DNA of 38,788 bases, taken from NCBI GenBank assembly GCA_003152995.1, contig PMBR01000089.1:109893-148680 (forward strand). Reading direction: 5' to 3'. Position 1 is the stretch's first letter; each line of letters begins with the position of its first letter. The DNA comes from Chloroflexota bacterium. Lineage in GTDB: Bacteria; Chloroflexota; Limnocylindria; Limnocylindrales; CSP1-4. Both the position numbers and the translations under genes were made by a program. The notes beneath the pieces are model-generated. The model searched no databases, was not told the origin of the DNA, and worked only from the letters and a program-made list of their open reading frames with translations. Below, in pieces: positions 7,910 through 38,304 of the stretch.

Positions 7910-8030
7910 ACTGAGGATAACGACACGGCACCACGATTTGTGTCATGCCGGTCGCGGCGGCGGCACGATCGCGAGCCCGGTCGCCGGATCGTCTCTCGGC
8001 CGGCCTTGGGCTTGCAGTTCGGGCGAAGAT

Positions 8031-8058
8031 TGAACCCTCGCGGCAGCGCCTGCGTCAG
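8031..8058 (+). promoter_or_regulatory. Candidate ECF-type promoter (TGAACC-N16-CGTCAG)
   Basis: TGAACC at 8031-8036 and CGTCAG at 8053-8058 are separated by 16 bp. Many ECF sigma factors read a -35 containing GAAC and a -10 containing CGTC, so this pair directly upstream of an ECF gene suggests autoregulation. It is a pattern match by eye; the high GC content makes CGTC common, so confidence is limited. Confidence 0.4.
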
Positions 8059-8098
8059 ATCAGGCATGATCAGCGCGACAGCGAGGGGAGAGAGCCGC

Positions 8099-8653
8099 TT
8101 GGCGAGACCGATACAGGGGGCCGAGGCGAGGGAACGCGCGCGAGCGATCGCCTTCACGCGCCTGACGGCCGATCGCCTGGCGTCCTGCTACCGATTGGCC
8201 ACGGTCATTCTGGGCGATCCGATCGAGGCCGAAGACGCCACGCACGACGCCGCCGTTCGGGCCTGGGAACGCTGGGGCTCGCTCCGCGATCCGGACCGGT
8301 TCGATGCCTGGTTCGGGCGGATTCTCGTCAACGAATGCCGCGATCGCCTGCGAAGGCGCCGGACGAGACCGCCTGCGGCAGAACTCACAGAGCGCTACCA
8401 CGCCGGCCGGAGACTCGGCGACGGCACTCAAGCGATCGCCGAACGGCAGGCCCTCGCCCAGGCCATCGCCGAGCTCGAACCGGACCACCGTATCGCGATC
8501 GTTCTGCACTACTACCTCGAGCTCAGCGCGGAGCAGATCGCCGAACGGACGGGCGCGCGCGTGGGGACGGTCAAGTCGCGCCTCCACTATGGCCTCAAGG
8601 CGCTGCGGGCCGCGCAAGACGCATCCGCCCGGACCGAAGGAGGACGGCGTTGA
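8099..8653 (+). CDS. ECF RNA polymerase sigma factor, second module
   Basis: This 184-residue sigma-70 family protein has region 2 in ATVILGDPIEAEDATHDAAVRAWERW and region 4 in ELEPDHRIAIVLHYYLELSAEQIAERTGARVGTVKSRL; the YY-L-LSxEQIAxxxG-GTVKSRL pattern is classic for ECF factors. TTG 8099 is preferred because AGGGGAG lies 8 nt upstream. An in-frame ATG at 8066 has no clear ribosome-binding site and would add 11 residues, though a transcript starting at the candidate promoter could be read from it almost leaderless. The last codons overlap the start of the kelch protein (TTGA), so the two are a coupled pair. Confidence 0.93.
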   Translation: MARPIQGAEARERARAIAFTRLTADRLASCYRLATVILGDPIEAEDATHDAAVRAWERWGSLRDPDRFDAWFGRILVNECRDRLRRRRTRPPAAELTERYHAGRRLGDGTQAIAERQALAQAIAELEPDHRIAIVLHYYLELSAEQIAERTGARVGTVKSRLHYGLKALRAAQDASARTEGGRR

Positions 8654-10119
8654 GCGACGAGAGACTCGACCGAGAGCTGGGCGAGATCCTCCGGGCCGCC
8701 GCCGATGTCGAGCTGCCCGCACGGCTGGCCGACCGGGTTGCGTCCATCCCGAGCCGCCGGTCTCAGAGTGCCGCGAGCCGCGGGGCGATCGGCGGGGCTC
8801 GCACCCGGCTGCCGATCGGATCGATGGCGCTGGTCGGGGTCGTCATTCTGGCTCTGGTTTGGGGCGTGCCGCGGCTTGCCCCCGGCTTTGCGCCTTTCGG
8901 AGCGGCTACGGCCTGCGGTGCCGGACCTACCCCTCGGCCGCCTGTGACTGTGAAGAGCGGGCCGACTCCGACGACATTGCCCGCAACGCCCAGCCCGACT
9001 GGTCCAGTGGGACCGACTCCGACCCAGGCGCCCGGCTATTTCGAGCCGGCAGGTTCCATGACGACTTCGCGAGCCGGCGCAACGGCCACGCTCTTGCTGG
9101 ACGGCCGCGTCTTGATTGTCGGTGGCAGCAGTGGCGCCGGGTACCCGACGGCATCGGCCGAGCTCTACGACCCCGAGACCTGCTCCTTCAGCGCCACGGG
9201 ATCGATGCCGGCCCCGCGCGCCAACTACACAGCCACACCGCTGACGGACGGCCGGGTGCTGATCGCCGGCGGCTTCGATGGCTTCACCAACAGCCTGGCC
9301 ACTGACTTGCTATACGACCCCACCACGGGTGCATTCCGCGCTACGGGATCCATGACCTCGCCACGTTCCAACCCCTCTGCCACGCTGTTGGGCGACGGCC
9401 GGGTCCTCATCGCGGGCGGGGAGGGCGTATCGCCCAACCATGAGGTCGACCTCGCCTCGGCCGAGATCTACGATCCGAAGACGGGCCGGTTCACTCCCAC
9501 CGGATCGATGGGAACCGCGCGAGTTGGTGCCGCCACCGCTCCTCTGCCGGGCGGCAAGATCCTCTTCGTCGGCGGTGTGTCGACTGCCTGCACCGCTGCC
9601 GGTTGTGACGATCGGCCGGCTTCCGCGGCCGAGGTGTACGACCCGGCCACAGGCACCTTCAGCCCGACCGGCTCACTCCTCGCCGGATGGGCATCCTCCG
9701 CGACGGCACTAAAGGACGGTCGGGTCCTCGTCCTTGGCGCGATCAGAAACCTGCCCATCCCCGTTCTGCCGATCATGCGCCCGCAGGCGGAGCTGTACGA
9801 CCCGAAGACCGGCAAGTTCACGATGACGGGCGGACATCAGACGCCCGTTGGGATGAACGCGACGTTGTTGCCGGACGGGCGTGTGCTTGTTCTGGGGAGC
9901 TTCGATGCCGCCAACGGCGGCGACACCGTCAGTGCAGCCGTGCTCTACGACCCCACGACCGGCACCTTCGCCCCAACCGGATCGATGGCCGTCGCGCGCT
10001 CAGGCCCCACCGTGACGCTGCTCCGCGACGGCCGGGTGCTCGTCGCCGGCGGAGCCGGGCCCCGTGGTGGGGACGTGCCGGGTCCCCCCCTCGACTCGGC
10101 CGAGCTGTTCGTGCCGTAG
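8650..10119 (+). CDS. Membrane anti-sigma-like protein with seven-bladed kelch propeller
   Basis: This is a 489-residue protein. TTG 8650 is chosen: it lies behind AAGGAGG, it overlaps the sigma factor stop by 4 nt, and the ORF-track start at 7945 would run through the sigma gene. Residues 1-50 are charged and resemble a cytoplasmic anti-sigma segment (DERLDRELGEILRAAADVELP). A transmembrane helix follows (about 56-76), then a Pro/Thr linker (about 95-130). The external part consists of seven kelch-type units, each with a GS-M...R...T-LLDGRVLIAGG core closed by AELYDP-TG-F. The design suggests that ligand binding or folding state outside the cell controls sigma release. The absence of a known anti-sigma zinc motif leaves that as inference. 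Confidence 0.85.
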   Translation: MSDERLDRELGEILRAAADVELPARLADRVASIPSRRSQSAASRGAIGGARTRLPIGSMALVGVVILALVWGVPRLAPGFAPFGAATACGAGPTPRPPVTVKSGPTPTTLPATPSPTGPVGPTPTQAPGYFEPAGSMTTSRAGATATLLLDGRVLIVGGSSGAGYPTASAELYDPETCSFSATGSMPAPRANYTATPLTDGRVLIAGGFDGFTNSLATDLLYDPTTGAFRATGSMTSPRSNPSATLLGDGRVLIAGGEGVSPNHEVDLASAEIYDPKTGRFTPTGSMGTARVGAATAPLPGGKILFVGGVSTACTAAGCDDRPASAAEVYDPATGTFSPTGSLLAGWASSATALKDGRVLVLGAIRNLPIPVLPIMRPQAELYDPKTGKFTMTGGHQTPVGMNATLLPDGRVLVLGSFDAANGGDTVSAAVLYDPTTGTFAPTGSMAVARSGPTVTLLRDGRVLVAGGAGPRGGDVPGPPLDSAELFVP

Positions 10120-20119: not shown

Positions 20120-20210
20120 CCATTGCACCAGGCCCCCGCCGGGGACGATGATCTGCTCGACGGCGCGGCCGCATGCGTCCAGCGGGCTCGTGCCGTATGG
20201 AGGGTTCCCG
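20120..20210 (+). promoter_or_regulatory. Conserved leader of copy A
   Basis: About 91 bp from CCATTGCACC to the start codon. It shares GATGATC(C/T)GCTCG, CGGCCGCAT and GTCCAGCG with the leaders of B-E and ends in GGAGGGTTCCCG before ATG, giving a strong ribosome-binding site. An in-frame ATG at the GATGATC core would extend the protein by about 21 residues. Role (promoter, RNA element or recombination homology) is not settled. Confidence 0.7.
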
Positions 20211-21647
20211 ATGGCTGCCGAACCGTTCCCCGAGCCGATCGTTCTCGACGATGCCGCTCCCGAAGCTCCGCCGCCCGAGCCGGCCCGCTCGCGGCGCTCG
20301 ATCCTGGGGGCCGGCCTGGCCGGGCTGGCCGGGCTCGTCCTCGGCTCACTGGGTCGACCGCTACCCGCGGAGGCTGCCGCGGGCGGCTCGCTCATCATGG
20401 GATCCGCCAACAGCGCCGGGACCACCGACACCAGTCTTTCGACCAATTCGAGCGGGACCGCTCTCCAGGCCACCCAAAACGGAGCCGGAACTGCTTTGCG
20501 TGGCATCGCCAACAACGGCATCGCGGGTTTCTTCACCAGCGCTAACGGTTCGGGCGTGTCCGGCGTGGTGGCCAACAACACCAAGTACGGCGTGTACGGC
20601 GGCAACGACGCGTTGACCTACGGCGGCGGTGCCGCGATCCGCGCCAACGGTGAACAGAACCACGGCCTGGTTGCGACCACGGCCGCCACCAGCGCCTATG
20701 CCATCAAAGCAACGAACACGAACCCGGGCAGCGGCGGTTCGGGCGGTCCAGCGATCCGTGCCCTGGCGGGAGGAGGCACCGATGCAAAGCTCGATGGGCT
20801 GGGCGTGCTTCACGGCGCCGGGGAGTTCTGCGGCACGATCGGGGTCGTGGCCATGGCCAGTGGAAGCGGCTATGGCGTCTACGGTTCCAGTCAATCGTCG
20901 ACTGGAATCTACGGTTCCAGTGTCTCGGGTGATGGCGTCTACGGTTCTAGCGACTCGGCGTATGGCGTCTGCGGTGCCAGCGCGTCGGGGTACGGCGTTT
21001 ACGGTTCCAGCGACTCGGAGGCCGGGGTCTTCGGTGAGAGCGAGTCGGGCTACGGCGTCTCCGGCTACTGCAGCAGCGGGGATGGCGTCCTCGGTTCCAG
21101 CGACTCGGGGTACGGGGTCTACTGCAACGGCAAGGCGGGAGTCTCCGGCAACCTACACGTCGTCGGCACGCTGTCCAAGGGCGGCGGCTCGTTCAAGATC
21201 GACCATCCCCTCGATCCGGCCAATAAGTTCCTGTACCACAGTTTCGTCGAATCGCCCGACATGAAGAACGTCTACGACGGCGTCGTGACGCTCGATTCGA
21301 AGGGCGAGGCCGCGGTGACCTTGCCCGACTGGTTCGAGGCCCTCAACCGCGACACCCGTGTCCAGCTGACGGCGGTTGGCCAGGCGGCGCCTGATCTTCA
21401 CGTGAGGACAAAGGTCCAGAACGGCGCCTTCTCGATCGCAGGTGGCAAGGCGGGCCAGGAGGTGTACTGGCAGCTCACCGGCATCCGAAAGGATGCCTGG
21501 GCGGACGCCCATCGAATCCCGGTCGAAGAGGAGAAGCCCGCCGCGGAGCGCGGGCTCTACCTCCACCCGACCGAGCACGGCCAGTCTGCCGCCAAGGGTA
21601 TCGATGCGGTTCGCAACGCCGCGATGAAGCCGCACGCGGGTAAGTAG
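20211..21647 (+). CDS. Tat-exported fibre-like repeat protein, copy A
   Basis: This 478-residue protein is the longest of five paralogs. A polar Pro/Glu-rich N-terminus (1-25) leads to a twin-arginine signal, RSRRSILGAGLAGLAGLVLG. Next is a conserved Gly/Ala/Thr/Asn-rich head (about 55-215) with AAGGSLIMG, NGIAGFFTSANGSGVSGV, KYGVYGGNDAL and AGEFCG. An array of about nine decapeptides follows (GVYGSSxSxx, about 222-306). The C-terminal domain of about 160 residues starts GGGSFKIDHPLDPANKFLYH and contains LPDWFEALNRD and the WQLTGIRxDAWADAHRIPVE segment. This C-domain occurs in many bacterial 'hypothetical' proteins; I know no function. The repeat pattern suggests an elongated beta-structure, so a secreted or surface fibre is inferred. 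ATG 20211 follows GGAGGG. Confidence 0.88.
   Translation: MAAEPFPEPIVLDDAAPEAPPPEPARSRRSILGAGLAGLAGLVLGSLGRPLPAEAAAGGSLIMGSANSAGTTDTSLSTNSSGTALQATQNGAGTALRGIANNGIAGFFTSANGSGVSGVVANNTKYGVYGGNDALTYGGGAAIRANGEQNHGLVATTAATSAYAIKATNTNPGSGGSGGPAIRALAGGGTDAKLDGLGVLHGAGEFCGTIGVVAMASGSGYGVYGSSQSSTGIYGSSVSGDGVYGSSDSAYGVCGASASGYGVYGSSDSEAGVFGESESGYGVSGYCSSGDGVLGSSDSGYGVYCNGKAGVSGNLHVVGTLSKGGGSFKIDHPLDPANKFLYHSFVESPDMKNVYDGVVTLDSKGEAAVTLPDWFEALNRDTRVQLTAVGQAAPDLHVRTKVQNGAFSIAGGKAGQEVYWQLTGIRKDAWADAHRIPVEEEKPAAERGLYLHPTEHGQSAAKGIDAVRNAAMKPHAGK
20874..21130 (+). repeat. GVYGSS decapeptide-coding repeats, copy A
   Basis: About nine 30-bp units, consensus GGCGTCTACGGTTCCAGC then variable codons, with Y-to-C/F/S/L drift in single units. 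This is the largest array among the paralogs. Confidence 0.85.
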
Positions 21648-21736
21648 CGGGTCGAACGGGGGCTGAGCAGGTCGTGGCGCCCGATCCGTTACCTCATGGC
21701 CACACTGGAGCCTGAGGACCTTCTGACGGCTTCAAC

Positions 21737-23607: not shown

Positions 23608-23918
23608 TTCGTCCTCGGTCTGCTGGACTCGTCGGCGCGTGGCCTTGGCGCCCAGGTGCTCGATGCCCTGGACGCGCCCTCCACGCTGGTCGCCGACAAT
23701 CCTGCCCCATCGACCGTAATTCGTCCCGGTCGCCGCGCAAGAACCGCGGTCGGCCGCGCAATGCCGGCTGGCCGGCGTCGATGTGTTTGAGGATCGACCG
23801 GATCTGTAACCCCGATTCTCGCAGACCCATTGCGTCTCGCTCCCGACGGGAGCGATGATCCGCTCGACGGTGCGGCCGCACGCGTCCAGCGGGCTCGCGC
23901 CGAGTGGAGGGTCTCCCG
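23608..23918. other. 311-bp divergent gap between dinB and copy B
   Basis: The right 92 bp is the copy B leader. The left part has no recognisable promoter boxes. Minus-strand ORFs crossing it in the track continue antisense through copy B and are shadows. Confidence 0.45.
23827..23918 (+). promoter_or_regulatory. Conserved leader of copy B
   Basis: About 92 bp, CCATTGCG to GGAGGGTCTCCCG, closely matching leader A (GATGATCCGCTCGACGGTGC, CGTCCAGCGGGCTCG). The short ORF starting at its internal ATG (MIRSTVRPHASSG) is out of frame with the gene. Confidence 0.7.
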
Positions 23919-25289
23919 ATGGCTGCCGAACCGTTCACCGAGCCGATCGTTCTCGACGATGCCGCTCCCGAAGCTCCGCCGCCCGAGCCGGCCCGCTCGC
24001 GGCGCTCGATCCTCGGGGCCGGTCTGGCCGGCCTGGCCGGGCTGGTTCTCGGCTCGCTCGGGAGACCGCAAGCGGCGGATGCCGCGGCAGGTGGCTCGCT
24101 CGTCATGGGAGCCTCCAACGACGCCGGGACCACGAACACGGATCTCGCCACCAACTCGACCGGCACCGCTCTCTATGTCCACCAGAACGGCACGGGCACG
24201 GCCGTTCGGGGTATCGCCAACAACGGCATCGCCGGCTTCTTCACCAGCTCGAACGGATCGGGTGTCAGTGGCGTCGTGGCCAACAACACCAAGTACGGCG
24301 TCTACGGCGGCAACGACGCTCTGACCTACGGTGGCGGCGCCGCCATCCGGGCCGCGGGCGGCCAGAACCACGGCCTCGTGGCCACTACGGCGAGTACCTC
24401 CGCCTTCGCCATCAAGGCGACGAACACGAACGCGGGCACCGGATATGCAGCCGGGCCATGCATCCGCGCCCTTTCGGGAGGCGGCACCGACGCCGACATC
24501 GATGGGCTGGCGCTGCATCGCGGCGCGGGGGAGTTCTGCGGCGCCAGCGGCGTGGTTGCCGTCGGCAAGTCGAGCTTCGGCGTCTACGGCTCCAGCGTCT
24601 CGTCGTACGGCGTGAACGGTGTCAGCAACTCGATGGCCGGCGTCTACGGTGTCAGCGACACGGGGGACGGTGTCCACGGTTCCAGCTCGTCGGCGACCGG
24701 CGTCTACGGCCGCTGCGACTCAGGAGTTGGCGTCTACGGCTCGACCGATTCGGGGTTTGGCCTCTACAGCAACGGCGACGAGATAGTCAACGGCGACCTG
24801 AACGTCATCGGCACCCTGTCCAAGGGCGGCGGCTCGTTCAAGATCGACCACCCCCTCGATCCCGCGAACAAGTTCCTCTATCACAGCTTCGTCGAATCGC
24901 CGGACATGCTCAACGTGTACAGCGGCACGGTCACGCTCGATGCCAAGGGCGAGGCGACTGTCAGTCTGCCGGCCTGGTTCGACGCCCTCAATCGAGACGC
25001 TCGGATCCAGCTCACAGCGGTCGGCGAGTTCAGCCCGCTGTACGTCAAGTCGGAGATGCACGGGGGCTCCTTCTCGATGGCTGGTGGCAAGGCTAGCCAG
25101 CGGGTGTACTGGCAACTCACCGGCATCCGACAGGACGCTTGGGCCAACGCCCACCGCATCCCGGTGGAAGAGGAGAAGCCGGCAGCCGAGCGCGGGCTCT
25201 ACCTCCATCCGACCGAGCACGGCAAGCCCGACACCAAGGGGATCGAGCAGGTCCGGAACGCCGCGATGAAGCCGGCCGGTCACAAGTAA
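23919..25289 (+). CDS. Tat-exported fibre-like repeat protein, copy B
   Basis: This 456-residue paralog of copy A has the same plan: Pro/Glu-rich N-terminus, Tat signal SRRSILGAGLAGLAGLVLG, Gly/Ala/Asn-rich head, seven GVYG-type decapeptides (about 221-285) and the GGGSFKIDHPLDPANKFLYH C-domain. The repeats are more degenerate than in A (GVNGVS, GVHGSS, GVYGRC). The C-terminus, NAAMKPAGHK, and the LSLPAWFDALNRD segment are the most divergent of the set, and its stop is TAA rather than TAG. The head is nearly identical to copy C at nucleotide level (AADAAAGGSL through YVHQNGTGTAVRG), suggesting recent duplication or conversion. ATG 23919 follows GGAGGG by 7 nt. Confidence 0.88.
   Translation: MAAEPFTEPIVLDDAAPEAPPPEPARSRRSILGAGLAGLAGLVLGSLGRPQAADAAAGGSLVMGASNDAGTTNTDLATNSTGTALYVHQNGTGTAVRGIANNGIAGFFTSSNGSGVSGVVANNTKYGVYGGNDALTYGGGAAIRAAGGQNHGLVATTASTSAFAIKATNTNAGTGYAAGPCIRALSGGGTDADIDGLALHRGAGEFCGASGVVAVGKSSFGVYGSSVSSYGVNGVSNSMAGVYGVSDTGDGVHGSSSSATGVYGRCDSGVGVYGSTDSGFGLYSNGDEIVNGDLNVIGTLSKGGGSFKIDHPLDPANKFLYHSFVESPDMLNVYSGTVTLDAKGEATVSLPAWFDALNRDARIQLTAVGEFSPLYVKSEMHGGSFSMAGGKASQRVYWQLTGIRQDAWANAHRIPVEEEKPAAERGLYLHPTEHGKPDTKGIEQVRNAAMKPAGHK
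24579..24770 (+). repeat. GVYG decapeptide-coding repeats, copy B
   Basis: Six to seven units of 30 bp beginning GGCGTCTACGGC or variants, ending at GGCCTCTACAGCAACGG. Confidence 0.8.
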
Positions 25290-25298
25290 AGCCTGCGC

Positions 25299-25391
25299 CC
25301 ATTGCACCGGACCTCCGCCGGGTCGATGATCCGCTCGGCGGTGCGGCCGCATAGGTCCTAGCGAATCTCGCGCCGTTGGAGGATTCCTCGA
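25299..25391 (+). promoter_or_regulatory. Conserved leader of copy C
   Basis: About 93 bp. The core GATGATCCGCTCGGCGGTGCGG is identical to that of leader D; it ends GGAGGATTCCTCGA before ATG. The internal mini-ORF is short (MIRSAVRPHRS, stop). It begins only 9 bp after the copy B stop codon. Confidence 0.7.
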
Positions 25392-26711
25392 ATGGCTGCC
25401 GAACCGCTGACCGAACCCATCCTTTTCGCCGATGCCGCCCCGGACGCTCCACAACCCGAGCCGGCCCGCTCGCGGCGCTCCATCCTTGGGGCCGGCCTCG
25501 CCGGCCTCGCCGGTCTGGTCCTGGGCTCGTTGGGGAGACCGCAAGCGGCGGATGCCGCGGCAGGTGGCTCGCTCATCATGGGTGCCTCCAACGACGCCGG
25601 GACCACGAACACGGACCTCGCCACCAACTCGACCGGCACCGCTCTCTATGTCCACCAGAACGGGACCGGCACGGCTGTCCGGGGCATCGCCAACAACGGC
25701 ATCGCCGGCTTCTTCACAAGCTCGAACGGCTCGGGCGTGAGTGGCGTGGTAGCGAACAACACCAAGTACGGCGTGTACGGCGGTAACGACGCTCTGACCC
25801 ACGGCACCGGAGCCGCCATCCGGGCCGCGGGCGAGCAGAACCACGGCCTCGTCGCAACCACGGCCAACGCGAGCGCCTTCGCCATCAAGGCCACGAACAC
25901 CTACGCCGGTACCGATCCGTCGGCCGGAGCTGGCATCCGCGCCCTGGCGGGTGGCGCCACCGACGCCAACATCGATGGGCTGTCGCAGTGGCACGCCGCC
26001 GGGGAGTTCTGCGGCGCGACCGGCGTCCTGGCCGTGGCCAGTCCGGGGGATGGCGACGGCGTCTACGGTCTCAGCAACTCAGGGTTAGGCGTCTACGGCT
26101 ACAGCAACTCGGGGATGGGCGTCTACGGCTACAGCCACTCGGCGTACGGCGTCTACGGCTACAGCACGTCGGGAACGGCCTCCGTCTACTGCGACGGGGA
26201 CGGGTACGTGACCGGCAATCTCTATGTCGCCGGCAACGTGACCAAGGCGGGCGGCTCCTTCAAGATCGACCATCCCCTCGATCCGGCCAACAAGTTCCTA
26301 TATCACAGCTTCGTCGAGTCGCCGGACATGAAGAACGTCTACGACGGCGTCGTGACCCTCGATGCGAAAGGCGAAGCCACCGTCACGCTCCCGGTCTGGT
26401 TCGAGGCCCTCAACCGGGACACTCGGATCCAGCTGACGGCGGTTGGCCAGTTCAGCCCGCTGTACGTGAAGACAAAGGTCCAGAACGGCGCATTCTCGAT
26501 CGCCGGTGGCAAGGGCGACCAGGAAGTCTACTGGCAGCTCACCGGCATTCGACAGGACGCCTGGGCGGACGCTCATCGGATCCCGCTCGAAGAGGCGAAG
26601 CCGGCCGCCGAGCGTGGGCTCTACCTCCATCCGACCGAGCATGGCCAGCCTGCCGCCAAGGGTATCGACGCTGTTCGCAACGCCGCGATGAAGCCGCACG
26701 CGGGTAAGTAG
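25392..26711 (+). CDS. Tat-exported fibre-like repeat protein, copy C
   Basis: This 439-residue paralog has a twin-arginine signal, a head closest to copy B, about five decapeptides (GVYGLS, GVYGYS three times, SVYCDG), and a C-domain closest to copy A (TKVQNGAFSIAGGK, ending AAMKPHAGK). The mosaic relationship suggests recombination between copies. Differences from the family consensus include ATVTLPVWFEALNRD and IPLEEAKPAAE. The start at ATG 25392 is fixed by GGAGGA and by the shared N-terminus MAAEPLTEP. It lies in tandem between B and D. Role inferred as a secreted or surface fibre. Confidence 0.88.
   Translation: MAAEPLTEPILFADAAPDAPQPEPARSRRSILGAGLAGLAGLVLGSLGRPQAADAAAGGSLIMGASNDAGTTNTDLATNSTGTALYVHQNGTGTAVRGIANNGIAGFFTSSNGSGVSGVVANNTKYGVYGGNDALTHGTGAAIRAAGEQNHGLVATTANASAFAIKATNTYAGTDPSAGAGIRALAGGATDANIDGLSQWHAAGEFCGATGVLAVASPGDGDGVYGLSNSGLGVYGYSNSGMGVYGYSHSAYGVYGYSTSGTASVYCDGDGYVTGNLYVAGNVTKAGGSFKIDHPLDPANKFLYHSFVESPDMKNVYDGVVTLDAKGEATVTLPVWFEALNRDTRIQLTAVGQFSPLYVKTKVQNGAFSIAGGKGDQEVYWQLTGIRQDAWADAHRIPLEEAKPAAERGLYLHPTEHGQPAAKGIDAVRNAAMKPHAGK
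26058..26195 (+). repeat. GVYG decapeptide-coding repeats, copy C
   Basis: Four clear 30-bp units (GGCGTCTACGGCTACAGC consensus) plus one degenerate unit. Units 2-4 are nearly identical, indicating recent expansion. Confidence 0.8.
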
Positions 26712-26786
26712 CGGGTCGAACCGGGCCGGGACCACCGCCAGGCTTATCCCGCCCCCGCTCCCCCGGGTCACCGACTCTCCAGACGC

Positions 26787-26878
26787 CCATTGCACCGGGT
26801 TCCCGTCGGGTCGATGATCCGCTCGGCGGTGCGGCCGCATACGTCCAGCGAAACTCGCGCCGTCTGGAGGGTCTCCCG
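26787..26878 (+). promoter_or_regulatory. Conserved leader of copy D
   Basis: About 92 bp, from CCATTGCACCGGG to GGAGGGTCTCCCG. It is the best consensus representative. The internal mini-ORF runs through the gene start in another frame. Confidence 0.7.
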
Positions 26879-28198
26879 ATGGCCATCGAACCGCTGACCG
26901 AGCCGATCGTCTCGTCCGATCCGACGGCAGACGCGCAGCCGCCCGAGCCGGCCCGCTCGCGACGCTCGATCATCGGCGCCGGTCTCGCAGGCCTGGCCGG
27001 TCTGGTCCTCGGCTCGCTCGGGAGACCGGCTCCGACCGAAGCTGCGGCAGGTGGCTCGCTCGTGATGGGTGCTGCCAACAGTGCCGGGACTACGAACACG
27101 TCCCTCACCACCGCCTCGACCGGGACCGCCCTGCTCGTCACCCAGACAGGCGCAGGTACTGCCCTGCGCGGCTCGGCCACGGCGGTCAATGGCATCGCCG
27201 GCTTCTTCACCAGCGCCAACGGTCCTGGCGTATCGGGTGTCACGGCCAACAAGGACAAGTACGCCGTCTATGGCGGCAACGATGCCGGGGCTACCGGAGC
27301 GGGTGCCGCTATGCGGGCCGCGGGTGAGCAGAACCACGGCCTCGTGGCCACCACCGCGAGCACCAGCGCCTACGCCATCAAGGCCACCAACACCAACGCC
27401 GGCACCGACGGCTCGGCCGGGGTGGGCATCCGCGTCCTCTCTGGTGGCGGCACCGACGCCGACATCGATGGGCTGACTACGTGGCCCGCCGCCGGGGAGT
27501 TCTGTGGCGCGAACGGCGTCATAGCCGTGGCCCCTGGGGCCGGCATCGGCGTCTACGGATACAGCGGGTCATTTTCCGGCGTCTACGGTCTGAGCGGCTC
27601 GGGGGAAGGCGTCGTCGGTTCCAGCTCCTCGGGGACCGGCGTCTACGGCTACAGCACCTCGAGCTGGGCCGTCTACAGCGACGGGGACGCCGACGTCAGC
27701 GGCAACCTCTCCGTCACCGGCAACGTGTCCAAGGGCGGCGGCTCGTTCAAGATCGACCATCCCCTCGATCCGGCCAACAAGTTCCTCTACCACAGCTTCG
27801 TCGAGTCGCCCGACATGAAGAACGTCTACGACGGCGTCGTGACCCTCGATGCCGCAGGCGAGGCGACGGTCACCCTGCCGGACTGGTTCGAGACTCTCAA
27901 CCGTGACTTTCGCTATCAGCTGACGGCGATCGGCTCCTTCTCACCGGTATACGTGAAGTCGAAGGTGCACGCGAACGCCTTCTCGATCGCCGGCGGCAAC
28001 TCGGGCCAGGAGATCTCCTGGCTACTCACCGGTATCCGCAAGGACGCCTGGGCCGACGCCCATCGAATCCCGGTCGAAGAAGAGAAGCCGGCCGCCGAAC
28101 GCGGGCTCTACCTCCATCCCGCCGAGCACGGCCAGCCTGCCGCCAAGGGCATCGACTCTGTCCGCCACGCCGCGATGAAGCCGCACGCGGGTAAGTAG
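26879..28198 (+). CDS. Tat-exported fibre-like repeat protein, copy D
   Basis: This 439-residue paralog has the twin-arginine signal SRRSIIGAGLAGLAGLVLG. Its head pairs with copy E (TSLTTASTGTALLVTQTG, ATAVNGIAGFFTSANGPGVSGV), and it has about five decapeptides and the standard C-domain. Like E it has NRDFRYQLTA and NAFSIAGG in the C-domain, whereas A and C have NRDTR and QNGAFSIAGG, so two C-domain subtypes exist. The TAG stop is followed in the same frame by an open parvulin-like reading frame (next gene) after only a ~17-bp family tail. Confidence 0.88.
   Translation: MAIEPLTEPIVSSDPTADAQPPEPARSRRSIIGAGLAGLAGLVLGSLGRPAPTEAAAGGSLVMGAANSAGTTNTSLTTASTGTALLVTQTGAGTALRGSATAVNGIAGFFTSANGPGVSGVTANKDKYAVYGGNDAGATGAGAAMRAAGEQNHGLVATTASTSAYAIKATNTNAGTDGSAGVGIRVLSGGGTDADIDGLTTWPAAGEFCGANGVIAVAPGAGIGVYGYSGSFSGVYGLSGSGEGVVGSSSSGTGVYGYSTSSWAVYSDGDADVSGNLSVTGNVSKGGGSFKIDHPLDPANKFLYHSFVESPDMKNVYDGVVTLDAAGEATVTLPDWFETLNRDFRYQLTAIGSFSPVYVKSKVHANAFSIAGGNSGQEISWLLTGIRKDAWADAHRIPVEEEKPAAERGLYLHPAEHGQPAAKGIDSVRHAAMKPHAGK
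27548..27690 (+). repeat. GVYG decapeptide-coding repeats, copy D
   Basis: About five 30-bp units, GGCGTCTACGG(A/T/C) start, with GVVGSS and AVYSDG variants at the end. Confidence 0.8.
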
Positions 28199-28243
28199 CG
28201 GACCGATCGGGGGCTTGCGGCCAACACGAAGGCCGAGACGATC

Positions 28244-29524
28244 GTGGCCGGCCTCCACGACGCAGGCTGGACCGTGACCGGCGAGGATGTCGCGCTGTCA
28301 TCGAGCGGCGTGCCTGCCGACGCCTCGCTCGCGCTCGACCCGCAGATCGCCGCCGGAGCCGAGACGGCGGGGGTCGACGATCTCCTGGGTCCCGCGACCG
28401 ACGAATACGGCGAGATCGCCATGGCCCGGGTCCTGGCTCCGACAGACACCAACCGCGCCCTGATGGGTCTGCGCGAGGACGCCGGGAGCGCCAAGCTCGA
28501 TACCGGAGCTCTGGCGGACTGGGCCGAGGGCCAGGCTCTCTCGCGTGCCCTGGCCGGCGACCTGCTAACCCGCCAGAAGACCGCGGGTGTGACCCTCGCG
28601 CACTTCCGAGAGCTCGTCATCGGAGATGCACCCGACTCATCGGGAACAGCTGGTCCCTGGGTCGAGCTATCGGGTCTGGCACTCGATCGACTCGCGTCGG
28701 TAAGCCCAAGCTCGATAGCCGGCGCTCCGGCCGGTCTGGATCTCGGAGCCGATGCGCTGGCCAAGACTCTGCGCGGCCTGGCGGCACCCGATCGGATCAA
28801 GCTCTTTGGTGCCCTGGTCAGCGGCGCCAATGCCGCACCCGGCTCGGATGGCTCGGATTCCTCGGGTGAGATCGGCTTTGCCACAAACGATGGCCTCCTC
28901 CCCGACATCGGCAAGGCTGCCTTCGATGCCAGGGTCAAGACTGCCGACATCCTGGGGCCGATCACGACAGCCGCTGGTCCGCAGCTATTCCTGGTCGAAG
29001 CCCGCTTTGGTGGAGCGCTCGACGAACGAGCGAAGGCTGCCCTGCAGGAGGTCCGGGCCGATCCCTCACCCGATCTACTGGCCTACACCACACGCTTCTC
29101 CGCGGCCGATGCGCCGCTCGCGCGTGATGGCGGCTGGCGTGCCGACGCCGAGTTCGGAGCGGCCGAGGACGTTCGCGCCGCTCTCTTCGATACACCCATC
29201 GGGACTCTGTCGGGTCCGTTCGTTCTCGATGGCAAGCTCGCCTGTGCCATCGTGGACTCCCGTTCGAGTGGCATACCCTCTGCTCGAACGCTTGCTCGGC
29301 TATCGCTCGATGGCTTCGATGCCTGGTATCACGATGAGCGCATAGCGGCCATCATCACCCGTTCGGATAACCCCCTACCCGAGCTTGCCTCTCCATCCCC
29401 CTCTCCGACTCTGGCCCTGCCCACCATGCCCGGCCTCGCGACCCCGGCTCTGCCGACGATCCCGGGCCCCCCTGGCGCTACTCCGGTCGGGACCGATGAG
29501 CTCGGGTTGCCGGCGCTGCCGTAG
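28244..29524 (+). CDS. N-terminally truncated parvulin-type (PPIC/SurA-like) protein
   Basis: Up to 426 residues. Two segments have the look of parvulin domains: GEIGFATNDGLLPDIGKAAF...GPITTAAGPQLFLVEARF (about 205-250) and DGGWRADAEFGAAEDVRAALFDTPIGTLSGPFVLDGKLACAIVD (about 300-345). Parvulins catalyse prolyl cis-trans isomerisation and assist folding of exported proteins. A Pro/Ser/Thr-rich tail ends the protein. No signal peptide, lipobox or SurA N-domain precedes it. The frame is open back to the copy D stop codon (RTDRGLAANTKAETI), with GTG 28244 as the first possible start and no ribosome-binding site. The 5' part was probably removed when copy D arrived. It may be a pseudogene or be expressed by reinitiation or readthrough. 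Confidence 0.7.
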   Translation: MAGLHDAGWTVTGEDVALSSSGVPADASLALDPQIAAGAETAGVDDLLGPATDEYGEIAMARVLAPTDTNRALMGLREDAGSAKLDTGALADWAEGQALSRALAGDLLTRQKTAGVTLAHFRELVIGDAPDSSGTAGPWVELSGLALDRLASVSPSSIAGAPAGLDLGADALAKTLRGLAAPDRIKLFGALVSGANAAPGSDGSDSSGEIGFATNDGLLPDIGKAAFDARVKTADILGPITTAAGPQLFLVEARFGGALDERAKAALQEVRADPSPDLLAYTTRFSAADAPLARDGGWRADAEFGAAEDVRAALFDTPIGTLSGPFVLDGKLACAIVDSRSSGIPSARTLARLSLDGFDAWYHDERIAAIITRSDNPLPELASPSPSPTLALPTMPGLATPALPTIPGPPGATPVGTDELGLPALP

Positions 29525-29656
29525 GGGGCGAGAGTGTCCGGAGGCTCCCGAGCCCAACCTACGAGGGCCCGAAAGTGTCCAAGATTCTTGACGCGGGACA
29601 CGATCGGGATGTTCTCACGCCACTGAGAAACGTCGCAGGCCAACGAATCTTCACCA
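29525..29656. other. Short region with possible insertion-sequence end
   Basis: Between two convergent genes, GAGTGTCCGGAGG and AAAGTGTCCAAG recur 45 bp apart. The second faces GGGACACG (GTGTCC-N16-GGACAC), the sort of TGTCC-type inverted terminus seen at some insertion sequences. No transposase remains. Confidence 0.25.
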
Positions 29657-30106
29657 CTACGGCCGACGATACCTCCCGGGCCTCGGCGCGGCTGGCGCTG
29701 ACGCGCTAGGTGGGGCAACCTCCGAATCGGCGGTGGTTCTTGACAGGGACCTGGTTCGGCGCTTGGTCCATCGCGCCAACCACGCAGTCCAGGCCACGGC
29801 AAGCACAACCTGAATGGCCGCCAAGAGGTGAGAGGTGTCGATGGCGGTTCGGTTGATCGTCAGCAGTGACATTGCGGGCAGGAACGAGATGACGCCCACC
29901 CATATTGCGCCGTTGACAATCGCGGCCTTCACCCGACCTTCTCTGGTCTTAGGCATGTCCGAGTCCATCACTCCGCCGAGTATCAGTGGTATGCCTCGCA
30001 ACGCCGGATACGACAAGATGCTCGCCACGACGACAGAACCGCGGCAGTACATGGCCAAGAGGAGCAGACAAGCGGCCGCTCCTCCCCAGAAGTCCTTGTC
30101 AATCAT
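29657..30106 (-). CDS. Small membrane protein paired with Rhs gene (candidate immunity protein)
   Basis: This 149-residue protein has three or four predicted transmembrane segments (AAACLLLLAMYCRGSVVVASIL; AIVNGAIWVGVISFLPAMSLLTI; LLAAIQVVLAVAWTAWLARW) and a basic, Pro-rich C-terminus. Its ATG overlaps the TGA of the Rhs gene by 4 nt. In polymorphic toxin loci the gene directly after the toxin C-terminus usually encodes the cognate immunity protein, and a membrane protein fits an envelope-acting toxin. I recognise no family, so the role rests on position alone. Confidence 0.65.
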   Translation of the reverse strand: MIDKDFWGGAAACLLLLAMYCRGSVVVASILSYPALRGIPLILGGVMDSDMPKTREGRVKAAIVNGAIWVGVISFLPAMSLLTINRTAIDTSHLLAAIQVVLAVAWTAWLARWTKRRTRSLSRTTADSEVAPPSASAPAAPRPGRYRRP

Positions 30107-32073
30107 CGACAGACTCCAGCCAACGCATTCGTGAGGGTGTTGGCAATGCTAGTCATCGCACCGAACGCGGCACCAGGCAATCCCTTGTCCGGCATACCCT
30201 TTCTGGATACCGCCGCAGTAAGCAATGCAGTCAGCCCCGCCTGGCAGAAATTGACGTGACCTTCCCCTGTGCTCGCCTGGTTGGCCAGGTCGCCGAGGAA
30301 CGCAGTCGCGCCATTGCTCGAGACTGCGTCCTGCAGGGGATCGAGTGCGGTCACAGCCCTTCCGATAACAGGAACTGCCACCGAGACGGTGTAGTCCCGG
30401 AGGTTAGCCCCCTTGAATGGATCGTCGAACAGGTCCCGGCCGCTCAACTTGTTGCCCACCACGTTCTGCCCTAACGTTCCCCCGTAGTATCCGCCGATGG
30501 AGCCGGCCACGAGTACGAGACAAGCCCCAGAACCAGCGCCGAAGGTGATGAGGGTGCATGCACCCCATGCGCCCAGACCAACCAGAACGTATGGCGCAAC
30601 CTGGAGGGCTGTGTCTCCCACTGTGTTCGTGAAGCCGCAGACGATGTTGTCGCACGCGTTTCCTCCGACCAAGCCCTGGCCGGAGGCGAGCCGCTGGCGC
30701 CAGTTGTCTAGTGGGGTCGGAGTGTTGGCGCCGCAGCTGTTGTCGCTCCAGCATGTCGGCCCGGCCGGCTTTGTGTTCGTGTTGCCGCACCAGCGGGACG
30801 GATCCGCACACGGGGCGGGCGCGGGAGCCGTAGCGGCTCGACGACGCCTGTCGGTGGCCGCGTCCCCCAGGCTCTTGCGCCACCCGGAGACGGTGTCGTC
30901 AAGGCTGGGCGCCGTTGACATCTGATACCCCGAGGTCACGGTTTGGTTATGCCAACCGCTGATGGCGTCATCGAGGGAGTTGCTGGCCGCGTGGCCATCG
31001 GGATCCACGAGAGTGGCCGGGTTGGCGGCGGCGTAGAGGTAGCGGTTGAGCGTGAGCGGGTTCTGGGCGGACCCCGATACGGAGTCAAACGCGGTGAAGG
31101 CGCCAAGGGAGGGGTCGTAGGAGCGGGCGCTGAAGTCATACAGATCGGTCGCCGAGGCGGAGGACTCCAGGATCCGACCCTGGAAGCGCCAGGGGACGGT
31201 GAGCGAGCCGCTCGATGCGGTCCAGCTCCCCACCGTCTCGCCATAGGGGTCGTAGCGATAGGCATCGAGAAAGACCGGTGAGGAGTCGTTGCTGATGGCT
31301 GCGACGACGTTGCCGTGGAGATCGGCGATCAGATAGCCCGCTACCGCGCTCGTGCTGCCCTGGGCCAGACGATCGCCGATGGCGTCGATGGCGCTGTATG
31401 TGGTGGTGCCGCTCCTGGTGGTCGCGGTCACCTGGTCCGAAGCCCCTAGATAGGCGTAGGTCGTGGCCGCTCCGGTGCCGATAGTCTGGGTCAGATGACG
31501 ACCGAGGGCATCGATGCTGAAGGTCACCTTCTGCGCAGCGGTGCCATCGTCGATGGTGAGCAGGTGTCCCGCGGCATCGTAGGTGTACGTGGTGGCGAGC
31601 AGACTCGAGGAGTCCGGAGTCGAGGGCACCGAGCTGCGCAGGTTGCCCGTTGTGTCATAGCAGAAGTTGACATTGCCGCTGGCGCAGACCGTGCCGGTCG
31701 GGGCCGTGTTCGTGGTGTTCTTGGCCCGCAGTTCGTCGGTGGCGTCGTAGAAGTAGTAGAAGGTGACTCCGGCCTCGACGACGCTTGTGCGGTTGGAATC
31801 GGCGTCATAGGTGTAGGTGCGGGCTTCGGGCAGGGTGCCATCGAAGGAACTGGCGGTCACCCTGTTGGCGGCGTCGTAGGAGAACGACTCGGTCTGACCG
31901 TATGCCAGGGTGGGGTTGGGAGAACCGGCGCCGCCGGTGCGGTTGAGGGTCTGGGTCTCGGCGGCTACGTTGCCCACGGTTCCGAGTCTAGTAGGTTGCG
32001 ACCCGCGGGTTAGGCGATTCCGCATGCCGGCCGGCGCATGGTGGCGGGCGAGGCTCGAGCGTGACTCCATCAA
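30103..32073 (-). CDS. Rhs/YD-repeat protein, 5'-truncated, with variable C-terminal region
   Basis: This is a 656-residue ORF. YD-repeat motifs run from about 33 to 300 (YDAANRVTASSFDG, YTYDADSNRTS, YTYDAAGHLLTIDDG). The Rhs-associated core follows at about 310-362 (YDFSARSYDPSLGAFTAFD, NRYLYAAANPATLVDPDG). After DPDG comes a unique C-terminal region of about 295 residues with a Cys-containing Trp/Asn-rich part (about 420-490) and hydrophobic stretches (about 492-525). This is where Rhs toxins carry their effector domain; no known nuclease or deaminase motif is recognised. Full-length Rhs proteins are typically over 1,000 residues with a signal or PAAR/N-domain. Here the first ~30 residues are unrelated low-complexity sequence and no ribosome-binding site precedes the TTG start, so the 5' end is probably lost. 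Confidence 0.8.
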   Translation of the reverse strand: MMESRSSLARHHAPAGMRNRLTRGSQPTRLGTVGNVAAETQTLNRTGGAGSPNPTLAYGQTESFSYDAANRVTASSFDGTLPEARTYTYDADSNRTSVVEAGVTFYYFYDATDELRAKNTTNTAPTGTVCASGNVNFCYDTTGNLRSSVPSTPDSSSLLATTYTYDAAGHLLTIDDGTAAQKVTFSIDALGRHLTQTIGTGAATTYAYLGASDQVTATTRSGTTTYSAIDAIGDRLAQGSTSAVAGYLIADLHGNVVAAISNDSSPVFLDAYRYDPYGETVGSWTASSGSLTVPWRFQGRILESSASATDLYDFSARSYDPSLGAFTAFDSVSGSAQNPLTLNRYLYAAANPATLVDPDGHAASNSLDDAISGWHNQTVTSGYQMSTAPSLDDTVSGWRKSLGDAATDRRRRAATAPAPAPCADPSRWCGNTNTKPAGPTCWSDNSCGANTPTPLDNWRQRLASGQGLVGGNACDNIVCGFTNTVGDTALQVAPYVLVGLGAWGACTLITFGAGSGACLVLVAGSIGGYYGGTLGQNVVGNKLSGRDLFDDPFKGANLRDYTVSVAVPVIGRAVTALDPLQDAVSSNGATAFLGDLANQASTGEGHVNFCQAGLTALLTAAVSRKGMPDKGLPGAAFGAMTSIANTLTNALAGVCR

Positions 32074-32112
32074 GTGGCGGCGAGCGCGGCCCTTACTGGG
32101 AGCGAGAGCGGC

Positions 32113-33081
32113 CTAGAGGATCGAGAACCAGTCGCGGATGCCCGTCGGCCAGCCTCCCGAATCGGAGACCTCCAGCGACTGCGATAGGAGACTGTCGATC
32201 TGCCGGTCCAGGTTGAAGGCGACTGCCCAGGCGATCTCCTCAGTTGGAGATCCGACCCAGGGCAGCGGCCTCATCACGACCACTTGTTCCAGCGACTGAG
32301 CCTGAGCGATGGCCGCCCTGAGCGTCCGGCGATAGGCGTTGAGCATCGCCGCCAGCATCGCGCCTTCTTCCGTGCGCGCCGGCATCGAGCCCGACATGAG
32401 ATAGGTGATAGCGCCCGCGATCGCTGCTCCAAGGCCGACGATCGCGACGACAATGGAATTGGGCTCCACCGATGCCGCGATTGGCCTCGAAACCCAGCCA
32501 ATCAAGAACAGCCCTGCCACCACTTCGGTCCCAGCCAGGATCCGCCACCTGTGGATCAGGGCGCCCGGGTGAGCGTGAACCCATCCGCGCTGCACGGCTA
32601 TTTCGTCAAGAGATCGCGTGAAGTCGGCGAAGGCGCCGCTCAGCGTACCGAGAAACAGAGAGGGCAGATGCCGTGACCCGGCCATCCTGTAACGGATCGA
32701 CTCGTAGAGTGCCGCTTCGGGCGCCGGCAAGTTCAGACGACCGTCGCGATCCGTGGTCAGGTCCAGGCCGGCTCGGTGACCAACGGGGGCCGGCTCGGCG
32801 CTAAAGGCGATGAGTCCGTGGCTGGCCAGATCCATCAGCCCGGCAGAAACGGTTCGCCGCGATGCGCTGCCATGCAGCACCAGCGACGCCAGTGCCGGAG
32901 TGAAGTCGGGCGGCGGCGACGGCATGAGCACCGAGTCGTCATCGGCGAAGTGAGGGTCGCGCCCGTGCCTGAACCACCGCCACAGTGGCAACGCCGCCAG
33001 CGCGAAGTCCGCCGTCAGTCCCGCCGACAGGATGCAAATCTGGAGAATCGTCACGGTCGCATCTCCCCATTGCGAGACCAT
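32113..33081 (-). CDS. DUF2207-like membrane protein, short form
   Basis: This 322-residue protein begins with a hydrophobic segment (ILQICILSAGLTADFALAALPLW). The DUF2207-type block follows: RDPHFADDDSVLMPSPPPDFTPALASLVLHGSASRRTVSAGLMDLASHGLIAF (about 40-95). Two transmembrane helices lie near 190-240, and a conserved-looking PWVGSPTEEIAWAVAFNL occurs near the end. DUF2207 proteins usually have a signal peptide and an external beta-domain of about 200-300 residues before this part, so this copy corresponds to the C-terminal half only. ATG 33081 has a weak GGCGGA ribosome-binding site. It ends 40 nt upstream of the Rhs ORF on the same strand. Function unknown. Confidence 0.7.
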   Translation of the reverse strand: MVSQWGDATVTILQICILSAGLTADFALAALPLWRWFRHGRDPHFADDDSVLMPSPPPDFTPALASLVLHGSASRRTVSAGLMDLASHGLIAFSAEPAPVGHRAGLDLTTDRDGRLNLPAPEAALYESIRYRMAGSRHLPSLFLGTLSGAFADFTRSLDEIAVQRGWVHAHPGALIHRWRILAGTEVVAGLFLIGWVSRPIAASVEPNSIVVAIVGLGAAIAGAITYLMSGSMPARTEEGAMLAAMLNAYRRTLRAAIAQAQSLEQVVVMRPLPWVGSPTEEIAWAVAFNLDRQIDSLLSQSLEVSDSGGWPTGIRDWFSIL

Positions 33082-36806: not shown

Positions 36807-36900
36807 CCGATTGCATGGGCCTCCTGCCGGAACAATGATCCGCCCGGCGGTGCGGCCACATGCGTTTGGCGAACTTGCGCCGTCTGGAGGGTTTCTCCCG
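36807..36900 (+). promoter_or_regulatory. Conserved leader of copy E
   Basis: About 94 bp. It begins CCGATTGCATGGG (matching the orphan at 12.89 kb), contains ATGATCCGCCCGGCGGTGCGG and ends GGAGGGTTTCTCCCG before ATG. The internal ATG is in frame with the gene and would add 21 residues. Confidence 0.7.
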
Positions 36901-38223
36901 ATGGCTGTCGAACCGCTGACTGAATCTATTGTGGCGCCCGATCTCGCCGCGGACGCGCAGCCGCCCGATCCCGCTCCCGAAGCTCCGCCGGCTGAGCCAT
37001 CCCGCTCGCGGCGTTCGGTTCTCGGCGCCGGCCTGGCCGGTCTGGCCGGTCTGGTCCTGGGTTCGTTGGGTAGACCGGCTCCGACAGACGCCGCGGCCGG
37101 TGGCTCGCTCGTTATGGGTGCCGCCAACAGTGCCGGGGCCACGAACACGAGCCTTACCACCGCGTCCACCGGAACCGCGCTCCTGGTCACCCAGACAGGC
37201 GGGGGTACTGCTATGCGTGGAGCGGCCACGGCGGTCAATGGCATCGCCGGCTTCTTCACCTCCGCCAACGGTCCCGGCGTATCGGGTGTCACTGCCAACA
37301 ACACCAAGTACGGCGTCTATGGCGCTAACGACGCGTTGACCTACGGTGGCGGGGCCGCCATCCGGGCCGCGGGTGAGCAGAACCACGGCCTCGTGGCCAC
37401 TACCGCGAGCAACAGCGCCTACGCCATCAAGGCCATAAACACGAACCCGGGCACCGGCTCTTCGGCCGGGGCAGGCATCCGCGCCCTGGCTGGCGGCGGC
37501 ACCGACGCCGACATCGTTGCACTGGCGACATATCCCGCCGCCGGGGAGTTCTGTGGCGCTAACGGCGTGGTGGGCGTGGCCAGTGCGACCAGCGGCGACG
37601 GCGTCTACGGTCAGAGCACGTCGGGGATCGGCGTCTTCGGTGACAGCGACTCGTCGTACGGCGTCGTCGGTGTCAGCGGCACGACCTACGGCGTCTACAG
37701 CGTCGGCCCCGCGTACGTCAATGGCAACCTCGACGTCATCGGCACGCTGTCCAAGGGCGGCGGCTCGTTCAAGATCGACCATCCCCTCGATCCGGCCAAC
37801 AAGTTCCTATATCACAGCTTCGTCGAGTCGCCGGATATGAAGAACGTCTACGACGGAGTCGTAACGCTCGACTCGAAGGGCGAGGCCACGGTCACCCTGC
37901 CCGACTGGTTCGAGGCCCTCAACCGCGACTTTCGCTACCAGCTGACGGCCATGGGCTCATCCGCTCCGGACCTGTACGTCAAGTCCGAGGTGAAGGCCAA
38001 CGCCTTCTCGATCGCCGGAGGAGATTCCGGGCAGAAGGTCTCCTGGCAGCTCACCGGCATCCGCCAGGACGCCTGGGCCAACGCTCACCGAATCCCGGTC
38101 GAAGAAGAGAAGCCGGCCGCCGACCGCGGGCTCTACCTCCACCCAACCGAGCACGGCCAGCCTGCCGCCAAGGGTATCGACGCCGTCCGCAACGCCGCGA
38201 TGAAGCCGCGCACGAGCAAGTAG
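36901..38223 (+). CDS. Tat-exported fibre-like repeat protein, copy E
   Basis: This 440-residue paralog is separated from the A-D cluster by about 8.7 kb of unrelated genes. It has a longer Pro/Glu N-terminus (DAQPPDPAPEAPPAEPSRSRRSVLGAG), the twin-arginine signal and a head of the D type. It has only about four decapeptides (GVYGQS, GVFGDS, GVVGVS, GVYSVG), the shortest array, and a C-domain of the D type (NRDFRYQLTAMGSSAPDLYVKSEVKANAFSIAGG). The ending AMKPRTSK differs from the AMKPHAGK of A, C and D. ATG 36901 lies 9 nt after GGAGGG. Downstream, a family tail and a partial leader continue, as if another copy once followed. Confidence 0.88.
   Translation: MAVEPLTESIVAPDLAADAQPPDPAPEAPPAEPSRSRRSVLGAGLAGLAGLVLGSLGRPAPTDAAAGGSLVMGAANSAGATNTSLTTASTGTALLVTQTGGGTAMRGAATAVNGIAGFFTSANGPGVSGVTANNTKYGVYGANDALTYGGGAAIRAAGEQNHGLVATTASNSAYAIKAINTNPGTGSSAGAGIRALAGGGTDADIVALATYPAAGEFCGANGVVGVASATSGDGVYGQSTSGIGVFGDSDSSYGVVGVSGTTYGVYSVGPAYVNGNLDVIGTLSKGGGSFKIDHPLDPANKFLYHSFVESPDMKNVYDGVVTLDSKGEATVTLPDWFEALNRDFRYQLTAMGSSAPDLYVKSEVKANAFSIAGGDSGQKVSWQLTGIRQDAWANAHRIPVEEEKPAADRGLYLHPTEHGQPAAKGIDAVRNAAMKPRTSK
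37600..37710 (+). repeat. GVYG decapeptide-coding repeats, copy E
   Basis: About four degenerate 30-bp units starting GGCGTCTACGGTCAGAGC; the shortest array in the family. Confidence 0.75.
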
Positions 38224-38304
38224 CGGACCGAGTGGGGCCGGGACATCCGCCAGACCGATGTCGGCCCTGCCCATTGCACCGCGCTCCCGCCGGGTCGATG
38301 ATCC
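38224..38304 (+). repeat. Family tail plus orphan partial leader after copy E
   Basis: CGGACCGAGTGGGGCCGGGACATCCGCCAG matches the tail after copy C. CCATTGCACCGCGCTCCCGCCGGGTCGATGATCC (38271-38304) then matches leaders C and D and stops abruptly at the GATGATCC core. No family gene follows, so this marks a truncation or recombination breakpoint. Confidence 0.75.

Follow-up and report, generated by a model that had tools for sequence, protein, structure and literature searches.

The window analysed here, a stretch of 38,788 nucleotides, contains a truncated Rhs gene that ends in a variable tail and overlaps a small membrane-protein gene. This raises the question of whether the two genes form a toxin/immunity pair and, if so, how the tail might act. 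We examined the locus together with the remainder of its assembly (3.05 Mb in 140 contigs, 73% complete and MAG-like) and with other genomes of the genus. The features of the locus are listed in Table 1.

Table 1. Features of the truncated Rhs locus in the window
Feature	Position	Strand	Basis
3΄ part of parvulin/SurA-like foldase gene, convergent to Rhs	28210..29600	+	94.5–94.8% nucleotide identity to intact copies in C48 and C68
149-aa polytopic membrane protein, candidate immunity protein	29657..30106	–	ATGA overlap, GGAG, three Kyte–Doolittle segments
Rhs ORF	30103–32073	–	656 aa, TTG start; open reading frame and Pfam/NCBIfam matches
Rhs C-terminal variable tail, candidate toxin (295 aa + stop)	30103..30990	–	Hydropathy; distant homologue in G014:C31
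Retained 3΄ part of Rhs core (YD repeats and Rhs_assc_core, DPDG end)	30991..31976	–	Pfam/NCBIfam; blastn
DNA from leader/promoter side of full-length Rhs gene, joined directly to truncated core	31977..32048	–	Match to C68

The Rhs fragment, its tail and the adjoining membrane gene

The Rhs ORF matched PF05593 (E = 2.7e-7) and TIGR03696 (57 bits, with a cut-off of 32.5), indicating that YD/RHS repeats and the Rhs-associated core are present; the repeats were located at residues 139–177 and Rhs_assc_core at residues 274–361 (E = 2e-15; Pfam/NCBIfam). About 330 core residues are kept. Together with the sequence itself, these matches confirmed that the core ends in DPDG (residues 358–361, nucleotides 30991–31002), as claimed in a preliminary description of this DNA, and 295 residues lie beyond this motif. 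The canonical Rhs autoprotease site is an aspartyl pair, DPxG-x18-DPxG. When this pair was read directly in the ORF, the second motif was present as DPDG, and the first was DSVSG, with a longer spacer and only the Asp kept.

The Rhs frame is open for 669 codons, extending as far as position 32113, where the DUF2207_C gene upstream has its stop. In this frame, the segment from 31977 to 32112 exhibited no coding signal (–0.1 bits per codon), and similarity to other Rhs copies stopped at positions 31974–31978, so that the genuine Rhs part extends from approximately 31976; the TTG start is therefore not meaningful. Near this boundary, the first in-frame start codon is GTG (31977), and it has no Shine-Dalgarno sequence at normal spacing. 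The fragment has neither a signal peptide nor a Shine-Dalgarno-preceded start at its boundary, in agreement with an orphan core lacking initiation and export signals.

The tail consists of a polar-, Pro- and Cys-rich spacer (residues ∼362–475) and a hydrophobic, Gly/Ala-rich, predicted helical region (residues ∼476–656). Hydropathy was maximal at residues ∼496–523, with a peak of moderate height, and the ∼130 residues C-terminal to this main hydrophobic segment are Gly/Ala/Leu-rich and predicted to be helical. The frame is intact across all 295 codons and shows a positive codon bias; the GC content is 0.64 in the tail and 0.62 in the membrane gene, compared with 0.675 in the window. The preliminary description had found no recognisable toxin motif in this region and had proposed a profile search of residues 363–656. 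This search bore out the observation, with no structural-domain match in Pfam, NCBIfam, PHROGs, PADLOC or the PDB; no family in the first four databases was matched beyond the Rhs core, and the PDB gave noise alone (subtilisin, E ≥ 0.36). The tail had no match in phages, viral contigs and 85k genome contigs, and a Rhizobium match from the plasmid search was set aside (E = 0.3). In an HMM search of 107 genomes of the family and 126 of the order, the only credible match came from one genome, G014 (see below); another match (G001:C41, E = 1e-5) was rejected because it is read in an alternative frame of a different gene, across a repetitive Gly/Ser-rich stretch. The AF2 model of the tail was wholly helical but unusable (pLDDT 30). 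On these sequence comparisons, the tail is not assigned to any known toxin-domain or ionophore family and may represent a new toxin family.

The description of the adjoining ORF as a 149-residue polytopic membrane protein overlapping Rhs by 4 nt proved accurate: the Rhs stop codon and the start codon of the membrane ORF overlap exactly, as ATGA, and three Kyte–Doolittle segments were detected. A Shine-Dalgarno-like GGAG is located 7 nt before the ATG, and the ORF is probably translationally coupled to the tail. Since three such segments occurred in 0 of 136 out-of-frame ORFs of 110–200 aa from the same genome, this hydrophobicity is unlikely to have arisen by chance. The codon score was weak (0.06 per codon; 0.04–0.13 for other candidate immunity genes), and a single-sequence AF2 model was all-helical, with four helices (pLDDT 56). 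The protein had no match in Pfam, NCBIfam, PHROGs, PADLOC or the PDB and no homologue in the genomes searched; matches across 40 genomes were weak, and the best one inspected has a stop and sits inside another gene. Occurrence of the membrane gene independently of Rhs had been named as evidence against pairing, and the searches found no Rhs-free homologue.

Borders of the cassette and loss of the Rhs 5΄ part

The convergent foldase gene (ORF 28244–29524) lacks ∼240 N-terminal residues, and its product gave weak Rotamase/SurA_N Pfam matches. Its similarity to the intact copies stops at 29600, shortly beyond the point where the membrane ORF terminates (29657). On the opposite side, blastn matches to other Rhs loci all end at 30984–30992, which is the DPDG junction. 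Because the conserved borders end at these positions, the tail and the membrane ORF (∼1.4 kb) constitute the exact variable unit. The foldase gene was convergent to Rhs in 9/9 genus loci that had both, at a distance of 1.5–5.6 kb from the Rhs cores; among the 13 foldase copies in the genus, two occurred without Rhs despite ample contig and two at contig edges. The foldase may help the exported Rhs protein to fold, or may only mark the conserved border of an exchange cassette.

Several further observations were made on this flank. The foldases encoded in the window and elsewhere (L089:7231–9201; L137; L096–L104) are membrane-anchored, with an intact form of ∼656–690 aa. In both C48 (L089) and C68 (L090, G000:C68:14554–20450), the foldase gene is preceded by a block with ParB-like genes (2.9 kb at ∼90% nucleotide identity), with a serine-recombinase-like ORF at C68:14554, both functions being read by eye; the block is possibly a mobile element carrying the foldase–Rhs locus. 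The window also contains five copies of a ∼1.45-kb unit (20120–21661, 23827–25289, 25298–26725, 26786–28212 and 36807–38237; ∼75–80% nucleotide identity), which encode secreted-looking Gly/Thr/Val-rich proteins of ∼440–460 aa; the three copies scanned had no Pfam match, and at 28212 the truncated foldase gene directly adjoins the final copy of the first array.

At the other end of the Rhs fragment, the 5΄ part had been regarded as missing, as in a displaced orphan tip. The core is indeed truncated, but it is not merely missing its 5΄ end: at the 31976/31977 junction, it is joined to a 73-bp piece that is 97% identical to C68:38450–38522 and has the same orientation relative to Rhs. In C68, this piece precedes the longest ORF of the full-length Rhs gene (3,920 codons) by 63 bp. 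A mere dispersed repeat was not favoured, since the piece occurs just twice in this genome and the other genomes of the genus gave a single short, partial match. Given this junction with DNA from just upstream of a full-length Rhs gene, the truncated Rhs is more likely to have arisen by internal deletion or recombination than by simple tip displacement. The signal peptide and ∼3,200 residues of the C68-type Rhs protein are absent at the window locus, which, judged from its sequence, looks like a condensed parvulin (PPIase)–Rhs locus without these parts. A comparison at the DUF2207 gene identified orthologues in other contexts, with no readable empty site.

Rhs loci of the genome and the genus

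Rhs cores were detected in 16 of the 21 genus genomes, followed by diverse tails. We read 54 loci, many on short fragments and some in tandem, and their tails formed ∼34 sequence groups, including PT-HINT pretoxin tips. At one of them (G014:C31), a short Rhs fragment is found beside the same parvulin-like 3΄ end, and its core matched that of the window by blastn (73.6% over 987 bp). The two cores are 60–90% identical; identity is 82–90% before DPDG and 15% just after. The tails are distant homologues (phmmer E = 1.3e-4; 28–29% identity over the C-terminal 184 aa), with a Smith–Waterman score of 101 (z = 7.8) that was above 2,000/2,000 shuffles, the top shuffle being close at 99, and they end within 4 residues of each other. 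No conserved His/Asp/Glu/Lys catalytic cluster was present in the alignment of the two tails. Downstream of the G014:C31 tail lies an ORF of 127 aa; it has three membrane segments and did not align with the window membrane protein (z = 0.9). The survey that had been suggested for the same tail linked to similar membrane proteins was thus borne out in part: a homologous tail accompanied by a membrane ORF was found, but the membrane proteins cannot be aligned. Co-inheritance of tail and membrane gene would accordingly rest on two loci with dissimilar membrane sequences. A common tail family with the same end and a different membrane partner would fit polymorphic toxin/immunity pairs, as read from these two loci.

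Membrane neighbours occurred beside 10/23 hydrophobic tails and 7/27 other tails in the genus, a difference that was not significant (Fisher's exact test, P = 0.24), and the hydrophobic tail was rejected as a predictor of a membrane neighbour. Some tails (e.g. L057 and L075) have a soluble C-terminal domain preceded by a hydrophobic Gly/Ala segment, and their neighbours are not membrane proteins; hydrophobic stretches in tails with soluble neighbours are probably pretoxin/translocation (delivery) segments.

Within the window's own genome, the full-length C68 Rhs protein comprises a signal-peptide-like start, laminin-G-like domains, YD repeats and the Rhs core. Its N-terminus exhibits an Arg-rich stretch, a hydrophobic core and an AxA-like site (by eye and hydropathy); the window ORF lacks such a signal peptide. 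No high-identity core partner was found in this 73%-complete genome: C68 was 46% identical in amino acids overall and 74% in nucleotides over 212 bp, and C130 was 79% identical in nucleotides over 394 bp. From the sequences, such identities over 212–394 bp would be low for efficient homologous recombination, and a better partner may lie in the quarter of the genome that is missing from the assembly. In C136, too, an orphan tail and a membrane ORF share 4 nt. The C136 and C68 tails (L139:4504–5217; L137:4024–4644) are homologues of each other (E ∼1e-74). The membrane proteins beside them, however, could not be aligned, and therefore this pair gives no proof of co-inheritance. The membrane neighbour of the C68 tail had a weak match to a bacterial PH domain. 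A displaced PT-HINT tip adjoins the full-length Rhs gene of the same genome. An orphan tip with a HINT-like end in G000:C130 (L093:9439–10846), overlapped over 4 nt by an 84-aa ORF and followed by a tailless Rhs core fragment, is by its sequence a further displaced tip.

A candidate Rhs-CT/immunity cassette and alternative explanations

The view of this locus as a polymorphic toxin with its immunity gene is supported by the hypervariable cassette after DPDG, the ∼34 tail groups, the G014:C31 locus and the PT-HINT tip of the same genome, and assignment to the Rhs-CT/immunity cassette class is well supported by these sequence comparisons. With regard to function, we consider it slightly more probable than even that this is an orphan WapA-type cassette whose tail depolarises the membrane and whose 149-aa membrane protein provides immunity, these parts being taken jointly. 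We infer the silence, toxicity, membrane mechanism and protection of the cassette along the following lines. A complete Rhs protein of this genome would be exported via its signal peptide, with the C-terminal tail carried past the YD-repeat core. Because the window fragment lacks initiation and export signals, retaining the last core residues and the tail, it is probably silent. It could serve as a reserve tip that recombination with a complete rhs gene, via the shared core or the shared parvulin-like 3΄ flank, would re-activate. Once delivered, the hydrophobic Gly/Ala-rich helices of the tail would enter the cytoplasmic membrane of the target and dissipate its potential, and the 149-aa protein, produced from the coupled ATGA start, would block the tail in the producer membrane. 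By analogy, a membrane-resident candidate immunity protein suggests the membrane as the target of the tail. Also in favour of this explanation are the low GC content of the tail and membrane genes, the overlapping start with its Shine-Dalgarno-like sequence, the overlapping membrane ORF of the C136 tail and the layout of the C68 Rhs protein. Against it stand the lack of a membrane-ORF homologue and of an alignment with the G014 ORF, the hydrophobic stretches in tails with soluble neighbours, the non-significant genus-wide association (P = 0.24), the moderate hydropathy of the tail and its low AF2 confidence (pLDDT 30).

The main rival, which we regard as rather unlikely, is a toxin that acts as an enzyme on a target in the membrane or envelope. 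The locus would again be an orphan Rhs-CT/immunity pair, but its tail would be an enzyme, either from a family not yet recognised or with envelope precursors as its substrates; the hydrophobic stretch would serve only as a translocation (pretoxin) segment, and the immunity protein would reside in the membrane because the target is in the membrane or envelope. The L057 and L075 tails, in which such a segment precedes a soluble domain, offer a precedent, and ∼130 residues remain beyond the main hydrophobic segment; however, Gly, Ala and Leu also abound in this stretch, which is predicted to be helical, and no catalytic cluster is conserved between the two aligned tails.

The locus might instead be a degenerate remnant, that is, a truncated Rhs pseudogene that has lost its toxin domain, beside an unrelated or chance membrane frame. 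Truncation on both flanks (the 5΄ parts of Rhs and of the parvulin-like gene), the missing ribosome site of the Rhs fragment and the weak codon bias and lack of homologues of the membrane ORF would agree with decay, whereas the intact tail frame with its positive codon bias, the coincidence of its end with that of the G014 homologue, the Shine-Dalgarno sequence at the coupled start and the three membrane segments seen in none of the 136 spurious ORFs argue against decay, which is quite improbable. An assembly artefact, in which the junctions at 28210 and 31976 would be mis-joined repeats of a MAG and the real locus would carry a full-length Rhs gene, is very improbable. Both breakpoints do lie at repeat borders, and the assembly, which has 140 contigs and is 73% complete, contains parvulin-like blocks of 95% identity in C20, C48 and C68; however, the copies differ by 3–6%, more than typically collapses in assembly, G014 has a similarly short Rhs beside the same parvulin-like gene, and the tail–membrane pair lies inside unique sequence either way.

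The orphan WapA-type cassette that we favour can be compared with several known systems. Truncated orphan copies of WapA with immunity genes ('truncated duplication') have been described in Gram-positive bacteria, such as WapA-CT2 of Streptococcus suis (PMC12704120). The window locus shares with WapA-CT2 a core fragment without a signal peptide, a polymorphic tail, an adjacent immunity gene (here a candidate) and a parallel full-length Rhs in the genome that bears a signal peptide (here a putative one), and the C68 Rhs layout is that of Sec-exported WapA proteins, its signal peptide being judged by eye. In contrast to WapA-CT2, the window tail is unrelated to database families and joined to DNA of the rhs leader side, and a different lineage is presumed. 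In Salmonella, orphan rhs-CT/rhsI tips lack initiation signals and are silent before rearrangement (PMC3967940). The window resembles them as a displaced tip without initiation or export signals and with a common core permitting recombination with the main gene, whereas it has no near-identical donor in the incomplete genome (best core 74–79% in nucleotides), so that re-activation would be possible in principle only, and Sec-type export is presumed for its Rhs. A high-identity core partner is a feature of Salmonella and is not required of all orphans; the resemblance is one of form, with no demonstrated donor.

As for the mechanism, Tse5 is a pore-forming Rhs protein of Pseudomonas aeruginosa, and Tsi5 is its immunity protein with two transmembrane segments (PMC9637101, PMC10684867). 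The likeness lies in a predicted alpha-helical, membrane-seeking Rhs tail combined with an integral-membrane immunity protein (here a candidate); however, the window tail has no PDB sequence match, and Tse5 is a T6SS effector with a PAAR-like N-terminus. CDI ionophores are likewise paired with very hydrophobic immunity proteins, which are ∼30% identical within a group (PMC11630599). A helical tail and a short, very hydrophobic, highly polymorphic (candidate) immunity protein recall these systems, although their carrier is CdiA rather than Rhs and their CdiI proteins are two-helix hairpins of 72–100 aa, compared with 149 aa and three to four helices here. No relation of the tail to a known ionophore toxin was found in the PDB sequence search, and the AF2 model was unusable; by analogy, the tail may work like membrane-depolarising toxins rather than being a member of their families.

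We further propose, tentatively and as somewhat less than probable, that the tail founds a new alpha-helical, membrane-acting family of Rhs toxins so far found in this genus only, with a new immunity family of three to four transmembrane segments, and that the cassette is exchanged in the interval bounded by the Rhs core and by a convergent parvulin-like foldase gene, which would be dedicated to rhs loci and form their conserved border. Orphan Rhs tips and membrane immunity proteins are already known in general. The present locus adds a candidate pair that belongs to no database family, from a genus for which rhs loci seem not to have been described, and a cassette bounded on both sides, by the core and the parvulin-like gene, so that the exchange unit is unusually well defined. 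As a separate observation on these loci, the next listed ORF after the Rhs tail belongs to one homologous secreted family at six of them (L048, L051, L053, L056, L059 and L069; C103 of the window's genome is included), with Kelch-like repeat motifs recognised by eye, and a Kelch gene is also present in the window, at 7945–10119.
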